Below, piece by piece: positions 57,332 through 62,916 of a stretch of 64,000 nucleotides of DNA. The translations under genes were made by a program, and so were the position numbers. The notes below the pieces were generated by a model. That model saw only the letters and a list, made by a program, of their open reading frames with translations. It ran no database searches and was not told the origin of the DNA. Position 1 is the stretch's first letter; the number at the start of each line of letters is the position of its first letter. Origin of the DNA: Hypericibacter terrae (GTDB lineage: Bacteria; Pseudomonadota; Alphaproteobacteria; Dongiales; Dongiaceae); contig NZ_CP042906.1 in NCBI RefSeq assembly GCF_008728855.1, forward strand, positions 2,108,001 to 2,172,000, in the 5' to 3' direction.

Positions 57332-57372
57332 TCTCTCGTTGATCCCACTCTAGCCCGCGATCTCGCGCAGTG

Positions 57373-58161
57373 TCAGGTCTGCCGACCGGTCTCCGCTGGC
57401 GCCTGGATCAGGCAGCCTCGCGTCAAGGCGGCCGCCAAGGCTGCCGCGACATCGAAGTCAGGGTCGGCATCGAGAGCGTCGGTCACCGCCGCTTCGAGCG
57501 TGGCACCGTCGGCGAAGCGGGCGAGCATGACCAGCTCTGCGCGCGAGATCGCAGCCATCGCCACGTCGAAGGCCTGGCGATAGACCAGGAGGTAACAGCC
57601 GCCCGCGTCGAGATCGACTCTGACATCGGCGTCATCATGGGACTGATGCACACGCCAGATCGTCTCGATCGGCCAGGGCGACTCCAGCAAGCGGCAGGCG
57701 GGATGGAGTTGAAGCGCCGTCATGGCCTCGGCCGCCTGCGCCAGATCGGCCGGCGTCAGGGCCGATTCATCGGGCGCATGCCAAGCCAGATTGAGTGCCC
57801 ATTCCAACCGGGCCAGATCGGGGAGATAGGCCAGGCCCGCGGCCGGCGCATAATGCTGCAGAAAATCCGCGAAGCCCGCGCCATAGGCGGCGAGTCGGGG
57901 CTCCCGGGGCGGGTGGGCGCGAATGAAGGCCGCCCCGGCGGTGCGAAAGAAGCCGTCGCCAACCAGGCGATGCGCCACGGGGAAGGTGGCCTTCAGCGCC
58001 TCGGTCAGGCTGATCAGGCTGTTGTTGCGATAGATCTGGAGCCGTTGCGACGGCGTCAGGCCCAGCCCGTCGATATGGTCGAGCATTTCGCCATCCTGCC
58101 GACCGGGCGTACGGTCGAGCACGCGCTCGGCGATGGCGTGCTGAAGATCATGCAGCCGCAT
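57373..58161 (-). CDS. bufC: DUF2063 protein, BufC/HvfC-like partner of the DUF692 enzyme
   Basis: 262 residues. The N-terminal domain (residues 1-100) is the DUF2063 helical domain: LQHAIAERVLDRTPG, GLTPSQRLQIYRNNSLISLT, EALKATFPVAHRLVGDGFFR and a PPREPRLAAYGAGFADFL block. The C-terminal half is variable, rich in Leu/Ala/Glu. In multinuclear iron oxidase RiPP systems this protein recruits the precursor and partners with the DUF692 enzyme. It overlaps the DUF692 gene by 14 nt on the minus strand. The gene symbol follows bufferin nomenclature by analogy. Confidence 0.87.
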   Translation of the reverse strand: MRLHDLQHAIAERVLDRTPGRQDGEMLDHIDGLGLTPSQRLQIYRNNSLISLTEALKATFPVAHRLVGDGFFRTAGAAFIRAHPPREPRLAAYGAGFADFLQHYAPAAGLAYLPDLARLEWALNLAWHAPDESALTPADLAQAAEAMTALQLHPACRLLESPWPIETIWRVHQSHDDADVRVDLDAGGCYLLVYRQAFDVAMAAISRAELVMLARFADGATLEAAVTDALDADPDFDVAAALAAALTRGCLIQAPAETGRQT

Positions 58162-59068
58162 GAGGGGCCTCGTCCGGGACGCTGCCCGCCTGACGGCGCG
58201 CGATCAGAAGTCTGTCGGCCTTCGCCGATTCTTCGAGCAGCACATTCAGCGGCGGGATCTCTGAATCCCATTCGATCAGCGTCGGACGCGGTCCGATCCT
58301 GGCCAGGGTTGCGCGGTAGAGCGCCCAGACCTCGGATCCGACTGGCGATCCGTGATCGTCGATCCGCAGCTCGATCCCCTCAACCTCCTGCCGGCTGTGT
58401 CCGGCGAGATGGATCTCTCCCACCAGTTCGCCCGGGATCGCCTCGAGATAGGCGGCGGCGTCGAAACCCAGATTGCGCCCGCTCACATAGACATTGTTGA
58501 CGTCGAGCAAGAGCCGGCAGCCGGCGCGGCGGCAGGCTTCGACCAGGAACTCGGGCTCGCTCATCTCGGCATGGCGGAAGGCGAGATAGCTCGACGGATT
58601 CTCGATCAGGATGGAGCGGCCCAGGGCCGTCTGCGCCTGGTCGATATGGGCGACGAGGGTGGCGAGGGCTTCCTCGGTCCAGGGCAGCGGCAGCAGGTCA
58701 TTGAGGTAGAGACCGGCCTGGCCGGTCCAGGCGACATGTTCGGACACCAGCGCCGGCTCGGTCCGTTGCACCAGCTGCTTCAGGCGGTCGAGATGATCTT
58801 CGTCGAGACGGCCCGCCCCGCCGAGAGACAGGCCGACCCCGTGAAGGCTGATGGGGTAGGTTTGGCGAAGCCGGTCCAGGACATGGGCCGACCAGCTGCC
58901 CGACATGTAGTTCTCCGCGTGGGCTTCCAGCCATCCTGTGCATCGCCCGCCGTCGAGCAGCGCGCGATGATGTGGATGGCGCAGGCCGACCCCGGCCACG
59001 GCCGGCAGCGGGCCTGCGTTGCTTTCCGGGGGAGAAGGGGGCGCCGTCATGGGAGACGCGGGGTTCAA
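58148..59068 (-). CDS. bufB: DUF692 multinuclear non-heme iron enzyme, BufB/MbnB-like
   Basis: 306 residues with a TIM-barrel plan. Conserved blocks: GVGLRHPHHRALLDGG, LEAHAENYM, SLHGVGLSLGGAGRLD, VSEHVAWTG, ILIENPSSYLAF, LLLDVNNVYVSGRN, GEIHLAGHS, IDDHGSPV and IEWDSEIPPL. The His, Glu and Asp residues in these blocks are the iron ligands of the family. DUF692 enzymes oxidise Cys residues in ribosomally made peptides (oxazolone/thioamide in methanobactin, thiooxazole in bufferin). The neighbours, a DUF2282 precursor 14 nt upstream and DUF2063 downstream, point to bufferin-type maturation. Confidence 0.92.
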   Translation of the reverse strand: MNPASPMTAPPSPPESNAGPLPAVAGVGLRHPHHRALLDGGRCTGWLEAHAENYMSGSWSAHVLDRLRQTYPISLHGVGLSLGGAGRLDEDHLDRLKQLVQRTEPALVSEHVAWTGQAGLYLNDLLPLPWTEEALATLVAHIDQAQTALGRSILIENPSSYLAFRHAEMSEPEFLVEACRRAGCRLLLDVNNVYVSGRNLGFDAAAYLEAIPGELVGEIHLAGHSRQEVEGIELRIDDHGSPVGSEVWALYRATLARIGPRPTLIEWDSEIPPLNVLLEESAKADRLLIARRQAGSVPDEAPHAAA

Positions 59069-59082
59069 TCCGGGATCCTCGT

Positions 59083-59331
59083 TCAGGTCTTCGGTTCGAG
59101 GCTGGCGCCCGCGATCTTTTCGCAGGTGCCCTTCGGCACATAGATCCAGGCATCCGGCTGCCGGTCCTGGGTGGTGGTGCCGGCACAGGAATTGGATGCG
59201 GTCTGGCAGTCATTCTTGCCGGCGGCCGAGATTCCGAAGCACTTCTCGTTATCTGCGGCGGTCGCTGTCGTCGCCTGCGCCATCGAGATGGCGGCGGCGA
59301 TCGCCGAGGCAAGAAGCAGTGCGGTCTTCAT
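59083..59331 (-). CDS. bufA1: DUF2282 precursor peptide, bufferin (BufA1-like)
   Basis: 82 residues. Sec-type signal peptide of ~25 residues (LLLASAIAAAISMAQATTAT), then a short mature part ADNEKCFGISAAGKNDC continuing with SCAGTTTQDRQPDA and VPKGTCEKIAG. Four cysteines at 31, 42, 49 and 70 in the EKC-FGI, KNDC, SCAG and GTCEKI positions, exactly the DUF2282 pattern. In described bufferins the middle cysteines become thiooxazoles and the peptide binds copper in the periplasm; the same is inferred here. AGGAGA 8 nt before the ATG is a strong Shine-Dalgarno, fitting a highly expressed small peptide. First gene of the operon. Confidence 0.9.
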   Translation of the reverse strand: MKTALLLASAIAAAISMAQATTATAADNEKCFGISAAGKNDCQTASNSCAGTTTQDRQPDAWIYVPKGTCEKIAGASLEPKT

Positions 59332-59629: not shown

Positions 59630-60013
59630 ATGCCGGAGTCAGCCGCAGGCCGACGGGTGATCGCCACCCGTAGCGTTCCCTACCGCGAATACGACATGGA
59701 GGGGCCGCTGCAGCGCGACATCAGCTATCTGCCCCTGAGTTATCGGAACGAGACCAAGGAAGGCTGCTATCTGATGCGGATGGACCCGGGCGCGGTCACG
59801 ATCGCGCACGACCATCCGGGCTTCGAGGAATTCATGGTGCTCGAGGGCGAGTTGATCGACAGCGACGGACGGCGCCTGCGCGCCGGCGATTTCGTGAGCT
59901 ACGAGCCTGGAACCCATCATAATTCCTGGACCGAGAGCGGCTGTGTCATCATCGTCTTCGAATGGGGCGTGGAGCGGAGCAGGAGCGGTGGAAGGGCGAC
60001 TCAAACGTCTTAA
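59630..60013 (+). CDS. Cupin domain protein
   Basis: 127 residues from the ATG at 59630 after GGGAGAG; the frame is open further upstream but without homology or ribosome site. Cupin motif 1 is GAVTIAHDHPGFEEFMVLEG with His-x-His and Glu ligands, and motif 2 is GDFVSYEPGTHHNSWTESG with the second His pair. A ChrR-C/DUF-type small cupin, probably metal-binding. It is divergent from the bufferin operon, but a functional link is not shown. It is followed by a small terminator-like stem. Confidence 0.82.
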   Translation: MPESAAGRRVIATRSVPYREYDMEGPLQRDISYLPLSYRNETKEGCYLMRMDPGAVTIAHDHPGFEEFMVLEGELIDSDGRRLRAGDFVSYEPGTHHNSWTESGCVIIVFEWGVERSRSGGRATQTS

Positions 60014-60105: not shown

Positions 60106-60208
60106 TATAGTTTTTCTGGGGTCGCCCCTGGTGGCCCCGGGCCCTTTACCCGGACGGCTCCTCGAGAGCCTCCGCACCGGACCTGTTCCCACCATCATCG
60201 GCTGGTCA
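60106..60208 (+). promoter_or_regulatory. -10-like element and structured leader before cysD
   Basis: TATAGT at 60106-60111 is a good -10 with no matching -35, as expected for an activator-dependent promoter (CysB/Cbl-type; inference). The ~95-nt leader downstream holds three stems: GGGG/CCCC with a TCG loop (60118-60128), CCGGG/CCCGG (60137-60153) and GGCTC/GAGCC (60156-60170). No SAM-type riboswitch core was recognised. Confidence 0.45.
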
Positions 60209-61003
60209 ATGGATTATCTCGATAAGCTCGAATCGCAGAGCGTTTATGTCCTGCGCGAAGCCTTCAACCGCATCGAGAAGCTCGCGATGCTGTGGTCGCT
60301 CGGCAAGGACAGCAACGTCATGATCTGGCTCGCGCGCAAGGCCTTCTTCGGCCATGTGCCGTTCCCGACCATGCATATCGATACCGGCAAGAAGTTTCCG
60401 GAGATGTACGCCTTTCGCGATCGCTATGCGAAGGAATGGAACCTGAATTTCATCCGCGAGGTCTGCCCGCCGATCGAGGAGACCGACCCGTCGCTGCCGC
60501 CGGCGGCCCGCTCCGCGGCGCGCAAGACGCTCGGCCTGCGCGCGGCCATCGCCAAGCATGGCTTCACCGGCATCATCGCCGGCATCCGGCGCGACGAAGA
60601 GGCGGTCCGCGCCAAGGAACGCTATTTCAGCCCGCGCGGCGATGCCGGCCAATGGGATTTCCGCGACCAGCCGCCGGAGTTCTGGGACCACTTCAACACC
60701 GATCTGCCGCCGGGCACGCACTTACGCGTGCATCCGCTGCTGCATTGGACCGAGGTCGATATCTGGCGCTATACCGAGCGCGAGAAGATTCCCTGCGTGC
60801 CGCTCTACTTCGCCAAGAACGGCAAGCGATACCGCTCGCTGGGCGACGCCGACATCACCTCTCCCTTCAACAGCACAGCCACCACCATCCCCGAGATCAT
60901 CGCCGAGCTGGAAGCGACCCGCACGCCCGAGCGTGCCGGCCGCGCCATGGACCGCGAGACCGAGGATGCGTTCGAGCGCCTGCGCGCCGACGGCTATATG
61001 TGA
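60209..61003 (+). CDS. cysD: Sulfate adenylyltransferase subunit 2
   Basis: 264 residues from the ATG at 60209 ([20 protein letters not shown]), where CysD proteins normally begin, although its Shine-Dalgarno is weak. PP-loop motif: [11 protein letters not shown] (SxGKDS), then [40 protein letters not shown] and [19 protein letters not shown]. With CysN it makes APS from sulfate and ATP, the first step of sulfate assimilation. It precedes the cysN-cysC fusion gene by 14 nt. Confidence 0.95.
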
Positions 61004-61017
61004 GCCTGGAAACCGGG

Positions 61018-62916
61018 ATGTCGAACAAAGCAAAATCGAGTGCGGCGCGCGAGCAGCTGCGCATTGTCATCGTCGGCCATGTCGATCACGGCAAGTCGAC
61101 CCTCGTCGGTCGCCTGTTCCACGACACGGGCTCGCTGCCCGAAGGCAAATTCGAAGCCATCAAGGCGATGTGCGAACGCCGCGGGATGCCCTTCGAATGG
61201 GCCTTCCTCATGGATTCGTTCCAGTCGGAGCGCGACCAGGGCATCACCATCGACACCTCGCAGATCTGGTTCAAGACCCAGAAGCGCGATTACGTCATCA
61301 TCGACGCGCCCGGCCATCGCGAGTTCATCAAGAACATGATCACCGGCGCCTCGAGCGCCGAGGCGGCGATGCTGCTGATCGATGCCGGCCACGGCATCCA
61401 GCAGCAGTCGCGCCTGCACGGGTTCCTCTTGAACCTGCTCGGCATCCGCCAGGTGGCGGTGGTCGTGAACAAGATGGACCTGGTGGATTATTCGGCCCAG
61501 CGCTTCGCCGAAATCCGCCAGCAATACACGCACTATCTGGGCGGTCTTGGCGTCACCCCCGACTATTTCATCCCGATCTCGGCGCGCGACGGCGACAACA
61601 TGGCCGAGCGCTCGGCGCGCATGAACTGGTATCAGGGACCGACCGTGGTGGAGGCGCTCGACAGCTTCCATCCGACCGCGCGCCCGACCGACCAGCCGCT
61701 GCGCCTGCCGATCCAGGACGTCTACAAGTTCGACGACCGGCGCATCATCGTCGGCCGGATCGAGAGCGGCGTGCTGTCGGTCGGCGACCGCCTGATGTTC
61801 TCGCCCTCCAACAAGACGGCCCGCATCTCCTCGATCGAGACCTGGAGCACGCCTTCGAAGCCGGTCGGGGCGCAGGCCGGCCAGTCGGTCGGCATCATGC
61901 TCGACGACCAGCTCTTCCTCGAGCGCGGCGAGCTGGCGAGCCACGAGGCCGACGCGCCGATCGAGACCAACGTCTTCCGCGGACGCCTGTTCTGGCTGGG
62001 CCATGAGCCGCTCAAGGTGGGCGATACCTACGAACTTAAGCTCATGACCCGCTCGACGCCGGTCACGGTGCAGAAGATCGAGCGGGTGTTCGACGCCGAG
62101 GATCTGACCGAAAAGGCCGCGATCGAGGTGCCGCGTCACGGCGTGGCCGACATCATCCTGCGCAGCCGCGGCCTGCTCGCGCTCGACGAGGGGCGGGACA
62201 TGGCGCGCTCCGGCCGTTTCGCGCTCAGCGACGGCCATAACATCGTCGCCGGCGGCGTCGTCAGCATGGAAGGCTACCCCGACCAGCGCGAGCTGGTGAC
62301 GACCAAGGGCCGCAACATCAAGCGCGTCGCCCACGGCGTCGCGGTCGATGCGCGCACCGCGCGCAACGGCCATATGGGCGGCGTGCTCTGGTTCACGGGT
62401 CTCTCGGGCGCCGGCAAATCCACGATCGCGATGGCGGTCGAGCAGGAATTGTTCGTGCGCGGCTATCAGGTCTATGTGCTCGACGGCGACAATGTGCGCC
62501 ACGGGCTGAATGCCAATCTCGGCTTCTCGCCCGACGATCGCGCCGAGAACATCCGTCGTATCGGTGAGGTGGCGTCGCTCTTTGCCGACGCCGGCATGAT
62601 CGCGATCACCGCTTTCATCTCGCCCTATCGTTCGGATCGCCAGCGGGCGCGCGAGGCGGCCAAGGGCGCCTTCCACGAGATCTATGTCGAGGCCGACGTC
62701 GCGACCTGCGAAAGCCGCGATCCGAAAGGCCTCTACAAGAAGGCGCGCTCCGGCGAGATCGCCGAGTTCACCGGCGTATCGGCGCCCTATGAGCCGCCGG
62801 AGGCCGCCGAGCTGGTGGTCGATACGAAAAAACTTTCGGTGGCCGACAGCGTGAGCAAGGTGCTCGCATACATCGAACGGCATATGGCACTGAAGGGCCC
62901 GGCAAAGACCCGCTGA
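61018..62916 (+). CDS. cysNC: Bifunctional sulfate adenylyltransferase subunit 1 / APS kinase (CysN-CysC fusion)
   Basis: 632 residues. CysN GTPase part (1-~430): G1 [10 protein letters not shown]2 region with [10 protein letters not shown]3 DAPGHREF, G4 NKMD, then EF-Tu-like beta domains. APS kinase part (~445-632): Walker [36 protein letters not shown] and the catalytic FISPYRSDR. The NodQ-like fusion is typical of alphaproteobacteria. The product activates sulfate to APS and then to PAPS. It starts 14 nt after cysD; no cysH or sulfotransferase gene is in the window. Confidence 0.95.

Follow-up and report, generated by a model that had tools for sequence, protein, structure and literature searches.

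In the Buf1 type of bufferin, as PMC12452194 describes it, BufB and BufC turn the two central cysteines of the precursor into thiooxazoles, the outer two cysteines form a disulfide bond and the product is a copper-binding peptide; the leader for recognition is the signal peptide (PMC13419390). The Buf1 cluster of Caulobacter vibrioides, CC3254-3257, is controlled by SigF and NrsF and encodes a DUF2282 precursor, a DUF692 enzyme, a DUF2063 protein and a DoxX protein. By its description, the gigPABT operon of Cupriavidus metallidurans is of similar make: four-cysteine GigP, GigA, the DUF2063 protein GigB and the DoxX-like GigT, whose gene lies inside the operon, with a divergent ECF sigma/anti-sigma pair (PMC10304878). 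Genomes with several bufferin precursors per MNIO/partner pair have already been reported in PMC12452194, which names for them both maturation in trans and an unmodified precursor as options and calls for further studies; precursors located apart from MNIO genes are on record too.

We analyzed a window of 64,000 nucleotides (positions 2108001-2172000) of the Hypericibacter terrae genome, which is one contig of 5,894,118 bases and 99.65% complete. Its bufferin operon has the same precursor/MNIO/DUF2063 order as CC3254-3257 and resembles gigPABT. Unlike CC3254-3257, it contains no doxX, the genome has no NrsF match and no SigF box was found in the 220 nt upstream; unlike in gigPABT, neither a DoxX-like gene nor an ECF sigma/anti-sigma pair was found beside it. 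Like the multi-precursor genomes of PMC12452194, the host has one BufBC for two precursors. Our explanation as a whole is a Buf1 operon, a system split between two loci, a shared BufBC and a DoxX protein acting on the exported peptides, and we consider it probable.

Gene content, identity and regulation of the window operon

The operon and the gap that follows it are composed as follows:

59083..59331, minus strand: bufA, 82-residue Buf1 (DUF2282) precursor with four cysteines (open reading frame and Pfam DUF2282; signal-peptide-like N-terminus by eye)
58148..59068, minus strand: bufB, predicted MNIO (DUF692) maturase with a TTG start (PF05114, NF050167, iron ligands)
57373..58161, minus strand: bufC, DUF2063 partner with a predicted C-terminal RRE-type domain (PME-type 1) (PF09836, structure model)
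57332..57372, minus strand: 41-nt gap between bufC and the glycosyltransferase gene, the site of doxX in the related genus G002 (window compared with locus L102; gene order of L102)

The bufB gene starts 14 nt past the bufA stop, with GAGG 8 nt upstream of its TTG, and bufC overlaps bufB by 14 nt. Downstream of bufC on the same strand are genes for a glycosyltransferase, a LAB_N protein, a PMT-type protein and a PAP2 protein. In G001, the other genome of the genus, the gene order and the neighbors are kept; identity between the two genomes is 78% for BufA, 75% for BufB and 65% for BufC, and dN/dS is 0.15, 0.16 and 0.26, respectively. Since order, neighbors and low dN/dS are all kept in G001, the three genes are not together by chance. 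The original prediction of a four-cysteine DUF2282 precursor, a DUF692 enzyme and a DUF2063 partner was right in all three genes and exact in its coordinates.

Divergent to bufA is a gene for a single-domain ChrR-type cupin (59630-60013, plus strand; Cupin_7, 57.2 bits), which scores 32.3 bits against the ChrR anti-sigma model, below the cut-off of 124.5. Relatives of this cupin are divergent to bufA also in G001 (L088) and G005 (L101), which makes 3 of the 82 stretches examined. Sulfate-activation genes follow at 60131-62916 (plus strand), a CysD-type protein with a PAPS-reductase domain and then a GTPase/APS-kinase fusion, and these too are kept in G001.

BufA matches Pfam DUF2282 with 86.6 bits (cut-off 22.4), and its cysteines at positions 31, 42, 49 and 70 are the four of Buf1, not the six of Buf2. 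By eye, an MK start, a hydrophobic stretch and an A-x-A site make up a candidate signal peptide. Its sole NCBIfam match is BufA2 (NF050166) at 31.9 bits, below the cut-off of 60; with this score and four cysteines, membership in Buf2 (6/12-Cys) was rejected. Sequence searches for similar solved structures gave no matches for BufA or for BufC. The segment QDRQPDAWIYVP (residues 55-66) had been thought possibly lineage-specific. We compared it with 71 four-cysteine precursors, those left of 94 profile matches after 23 were dropped (20 with six cysteines and 3 with five). Uncommon residues are only Q55 (7%), R57 (4%) and P59 (15%), and from D60 to C70 the window carries the most frequent residue throughout (W62 84%, V65 81%, P66 84% and G68 91%, and more weakly I63 36% and Y64 35%). 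The segment is thus mostly family consensus, and we reject the idea that it is lineage-specific as a whole.

BufB matches PF05114 with 335.6 bits and passes the NCBIfam equivalog model MNIO_BufB (NF050167) with 369.7 bits (cut-off 310), and it stays below the NCBIfam cut-offs for HvfB, ApyH, MbnB and ChrH. An identity as the methanobactin enzyme MbnB was rejected (TIGR04159, 46.6 bits against a cut-off of 325). Replaced metal ligands had been named in advance as a sign against the assignment; all nine iron-ligand positions given for TglH in PMC10880893, mapped through a PDB alignment, are intact (H76, H111, E156, D189, N192, H220, D237, H239 and E266). In HvfB, replacement of N175, D242 or H244 abolishes activity (PMC13419390), and by order and type these residues appear to be matched by N192, D237 and H239 of BufB. 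BufC matches PF09836 with 81.8 bits (cut-off 27.2) and scores 64.2 against the NCBIfam model for HvfC, below its cut-off of 142. Its AlphaFold2 model (pLDDT 90.1, 18 sequences) has only three PDB matches at an E-value of 0.001 or better, namely TglI (8hci and 8hi7) and NGO1945 (3dee). The bufferin assignment is borne out by the equivalog match, the ligands and the structural likeness of BufC, and on these protein features we judge with high confidence that the window holds a Buf1-type bufferin operon, a kind that is already known.

Regulation was suggested to differ from that of the Caulobacter systems, and as far as tested this is what we find. Among the scanned neighbor genes between 53913 and 62916, there is no match to DoxX, NrsF or a sigma factor. 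NrsF (PF06532) has no match in the whole host genome; among 14 control genomes it was matched in Caulobacter only. The SigF box GTAACC-N16-CGAA, which was scanned for from -600 to +100 in PMC3511200, is absent from the 220 nt upstream of either host precursor (at most 2 mismatches, spacing 15-17). The scan is coarse, with 24 to 53 of 200 shuffled upstream regions matching, and given these shuffles the single real match, upstream of the G001 bufA', means little. We therefore reject SigF/NrsF control as far as tested: The absence of NrsF and of the box speaks against this regulator alone and does not indicate a replacement. In an alignment of the bufA upstream regions of the window and G001, the ribosome-binding region and some scattered positions match; upstream of bufA', the host and G001 have one 10-mer in common, GCGAACGTGA, which we leave without interpretation.

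Occurrence of doxX and a second precursor locus

doxX is the usual companion of a Buf1 cluster, not a defining member, and it is absent from the window operon. Across 116 genomes, the host included, DUF2282 was found in 51 and MNIO in 56. There are 74 places with DUF2282, 56 with an MNIO gene within 5 kb and 18 without. Near an MNIO gene, a same-strand doxX lies within 4 kb downstream in 50 of the 56 places; the six exceptions are the window, L088 of G001, L157, at a contig end, L159 and L132, where doxX is on the opposite strand, and L101, where the first of the three precursors has its doxX 4.5 kb away. Counted by stretches, 53 of the 82 examined have a Buf1-type precursor with an MNIO, the window included (51 with at most four cysteines in the matched part and 2 with five), and doxX is present in 50 of these, the exceptions being the window, L088 and one stretch cut by a contig end. 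It is present in none of the 15 MNIO stretches whose precursors are all of the six-cysteine kind. Among the orphan precursors, 12 of 18 are followed by a same-strand doxX at a distance of at most 1.6 kb (11 of 11 inside the window's family); the other six, one of them at a contig end, have none.

When 22 named loci were found from MNIO, doxX was there in 14 (L006-L009, L011-L018, L020 and L027) and absent in eight: four from Shewanella, L010 (contig end), L019, L023 and L025. The Caulobacter genes CC2907-2905 (DUF2282, DUF692, DUF2063) are presumably of the Buf2 type. They form an operon without DoxX in Table 1 of PMC3511200. Because of these eight loci and CC2907-2905, doxX-free operons are not unique to the window's genus; they are rare among the relatives surveyed.

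The prediction that the operon has no DoxX gene holds at the locus and is incomplete for the genome: About 0.68 Mb away, a related doxX adjoins another DUF2282 gene. This gene, bufA', lies at 1488306-1488455 and is followed on the same strand by doxX (67.4 bits, the top score among the genome's five DoxX matches). In total, the host genome has two DUF2282 genes, one MNIO gene and one DUF2063 gene. BufA' is 53-54% identical to BufA and keeps the four cysteines and the core motifs, including the stretch AGKNDCQTAxxSCAG. In the searched set the genus is represented by only one further genome, G001, which has the same bufA'-doxX pair in similar surroundings; the two BufA' proteins are 90% identical with all four cysteines kept, and their dN/dS of 0.11 is the lowest of the set (DoxX, 0.25). 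BufA' is under strong purifying selection and is without sign of decay. Near the distant pair (L004, 7783-8682 and 9765-10979) are a cytochrome c, a PNPOx-like protein and an HbpS-like heme-degrading protein.

The genome G005 has only one MNIO and a single cluster, bufA'-bufA-bufB-bufC-doxX, with a BufA'-like and a BufA precursor, which is the sum of the two loci of the host genome; a third precursor lies 2 kb upstream of it. In the sections of PMC12452194 and PMC13097082 consulted and in our literature searches we found no description of a two-locus split with a doxX placed at the second precursor, and a search for precursors modified in trans gave nothing further on point.

History of the split

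The closest comparison for the window operon is locus L102 of G002, bufA-bufB-bufC-doxX, which has the same genes and the same downstream neighbors (glycosyltransferase, LAB_N, PMT-type and PAP2). Unlike the window, it carries doxX between bufC and the glycosyltransferase gene, and one DUF2282 gene was found in this genome (160 contigs, 94% complete). In a quick tree, the BufB of G002 joins those of the window and G001 (SH-aLRT 99). Since this related genus has doxX at the same spot with the same downstream neighbors, the absence is most simply explained by a loss of doxX from there in the window's genus.

Where the distant doxX came from is less clear-cut. A first quick DoxX tree was poorly resolved: Forcing the distant DoxX to join that of G002 gave a score 25 log units better than the unconstrained tree (p-AU 0.889), which points to a poor quick search, and we therefore used a careful tree of a 31-row subset. 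In it, the distant DoxX groups with the DoxX of G005, G002 and G086 (94/95), the branch order inside this five-row clade is weakly supported (89/37), and constraining the distant DoxX to that of G002 or of G005 is rejected in neither case (p-AU 0.468 and 0.61). As the branching is equivocal, both a relocation from the window operon and a leftover of another operon remain as histories. According to the latter, the distant doxX would be what reciprocal loss left of a second complete bufABC-doxX operon. G001 does have a further complete bufA-B-C-doxX cluster (L089), and BufC-like open reading frames between bufA and doxX in genera g4 and g6 could be remnants of such operons. However, the DoxX and BufB of L089 fall in other clades, the DoxX linked to bufA' is nearest to the DoxX of the G005 and G002 clusters, and, outside its genus, the window's BufB has its closest relative in G002. 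We regard reciprocal loss as a doubtful but sizable alternative to relocation, and the two predict the same present-day split.

Some observations on relatives may be added. L089 is an extra cluster of G001 from another clade, and the host genome has no second MNIO match. The open reading frames between bufA and doxX (L090, 5955-6674; L095, 4051-4662; L113, 5924-6496; L119, 3766-4452; L091, 5264-5524) look like diverged BufC partners and may be remnants or a separate RRE-like protein. They were caught by an iterative BufC profile and left out of the DUF2063 count; none has a Pfam DUF2063 match, and their best match, DprA_N in L090, is below the cut-off. Module separations similar to that of the host recur in the family: In genus g4 (L092, L120, L121, L122; L090, L093, L094, L095), two four-cysteine precursors and doxX are at one locus, apart from the MNIO genes, and the Buf1-side BufBC is beside a six-cysteine bufferin cluster at another. 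In L105, L113 and L119, doxX and bufB are separated by a gene that by eye resembles a type II NADH dehydrogenase.

Proposed working of the two loci

Building on the observed genes, families, ligands, synteny, gene counts and selection, we propose a scheme for this system. BufB and BufC would bind the precursor in the cytoplasm through its signal peptide and oxidize the central Cys42 and Cys49 of BufA to 5-thiooxazoles. The Cys31-Cys70 disulfide bond would form after Sec export, and the mature peptide, now in the periplasm, would bind copper present in excess; the thiooxazole chemistry and the copper binding are carried over to the host by analogy with the described Buf1. In this genus the system would be split over two loci, bufABC, whose terminal doxX has been lost, and bufA'-doxX about 0.68 Mb away, with the same BufBC, the sole MNIO and partner found in the genome, maturing both precursors. 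DoxX would then serve the exported peptides rather than the maturation step.

Because the search of the genome turned up a single MNIO and a single partner, BufA' is either a substrate of this BufBC in trans or a peptide that stays unmodified. We lean toward maturation in trans by the window BufBC, because BufA' is under purifying selection and because BufA'-like and BufA precursors stand together in the one bufBC-doxX cluster of G005. If BufA' were instead no substrate, the window operon would work in the same way, and BufA' would be an unmodified four-cysteine periplasmic peptide whose partner is DoxX, with thiol or copper redox as one conceivable task. The absence of a linked MNIO fits this; PMC12452194 (Antoine et al. 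2025) leaves another purpose for unmodified precursors possible, and PMC10304878 speculates that GigP and the DoxX-like GigT act jointly on periplasmic Cu(I). Yet BufA' keeps all four cysteines and the AGKNDCQTAxxSCAG stretch of BufA, and in G005 a BufA'-like precursor is inside the operon of the bufBC pair, so that an unmodified BufA' seems unlikely to us. We think it improbable that copper is not the main target and that the operon acts instead on a different metal or against oxidative stress (gold, chromate or cadmium): The Caulobacter Buf genes are SigF-dependent under chromate and cadmium (PMC3511200) and the gig genes show a response to gold, not to copper alone (PMC10304878), but Buf1 of Caulobacter is a copper binder that helps growth when copper is in excess (PMC12452194).

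Returning to maturation in trans, we can picture two unlinked and mutually dependent modules, one being BufBC with one peptide and the other the better-conserved BufA' with its membrane partner DoxX, where BufA' would be matured in trans and DoxX would act on the exported peptide and not in its synthesis. This combined picture has, in our view, not quite an even chance of being right. Its DoxX element by itself, that DoxX acts with the exported peptides and not in maturation, we put forward only tentatively. The adjacency of bufA' and doxX is weak evidence for a joint function, because a deletion of bufBC from bufA-B-C-doxX would trivially leave bufA next to doxX.

The operon itself is ordinary. 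What makes the host genome interesting is the question, left open by PMC12452194, whether several related precursors are matured by one MNIO/partner complex: One MNIO, one partner and two unlinked precursors were found on its single contig, so that it offers a clean natural test. The pairing of a precursor with doxX where bufBC is absent also offers a handle on the role of DoxX in bufferin clusters.
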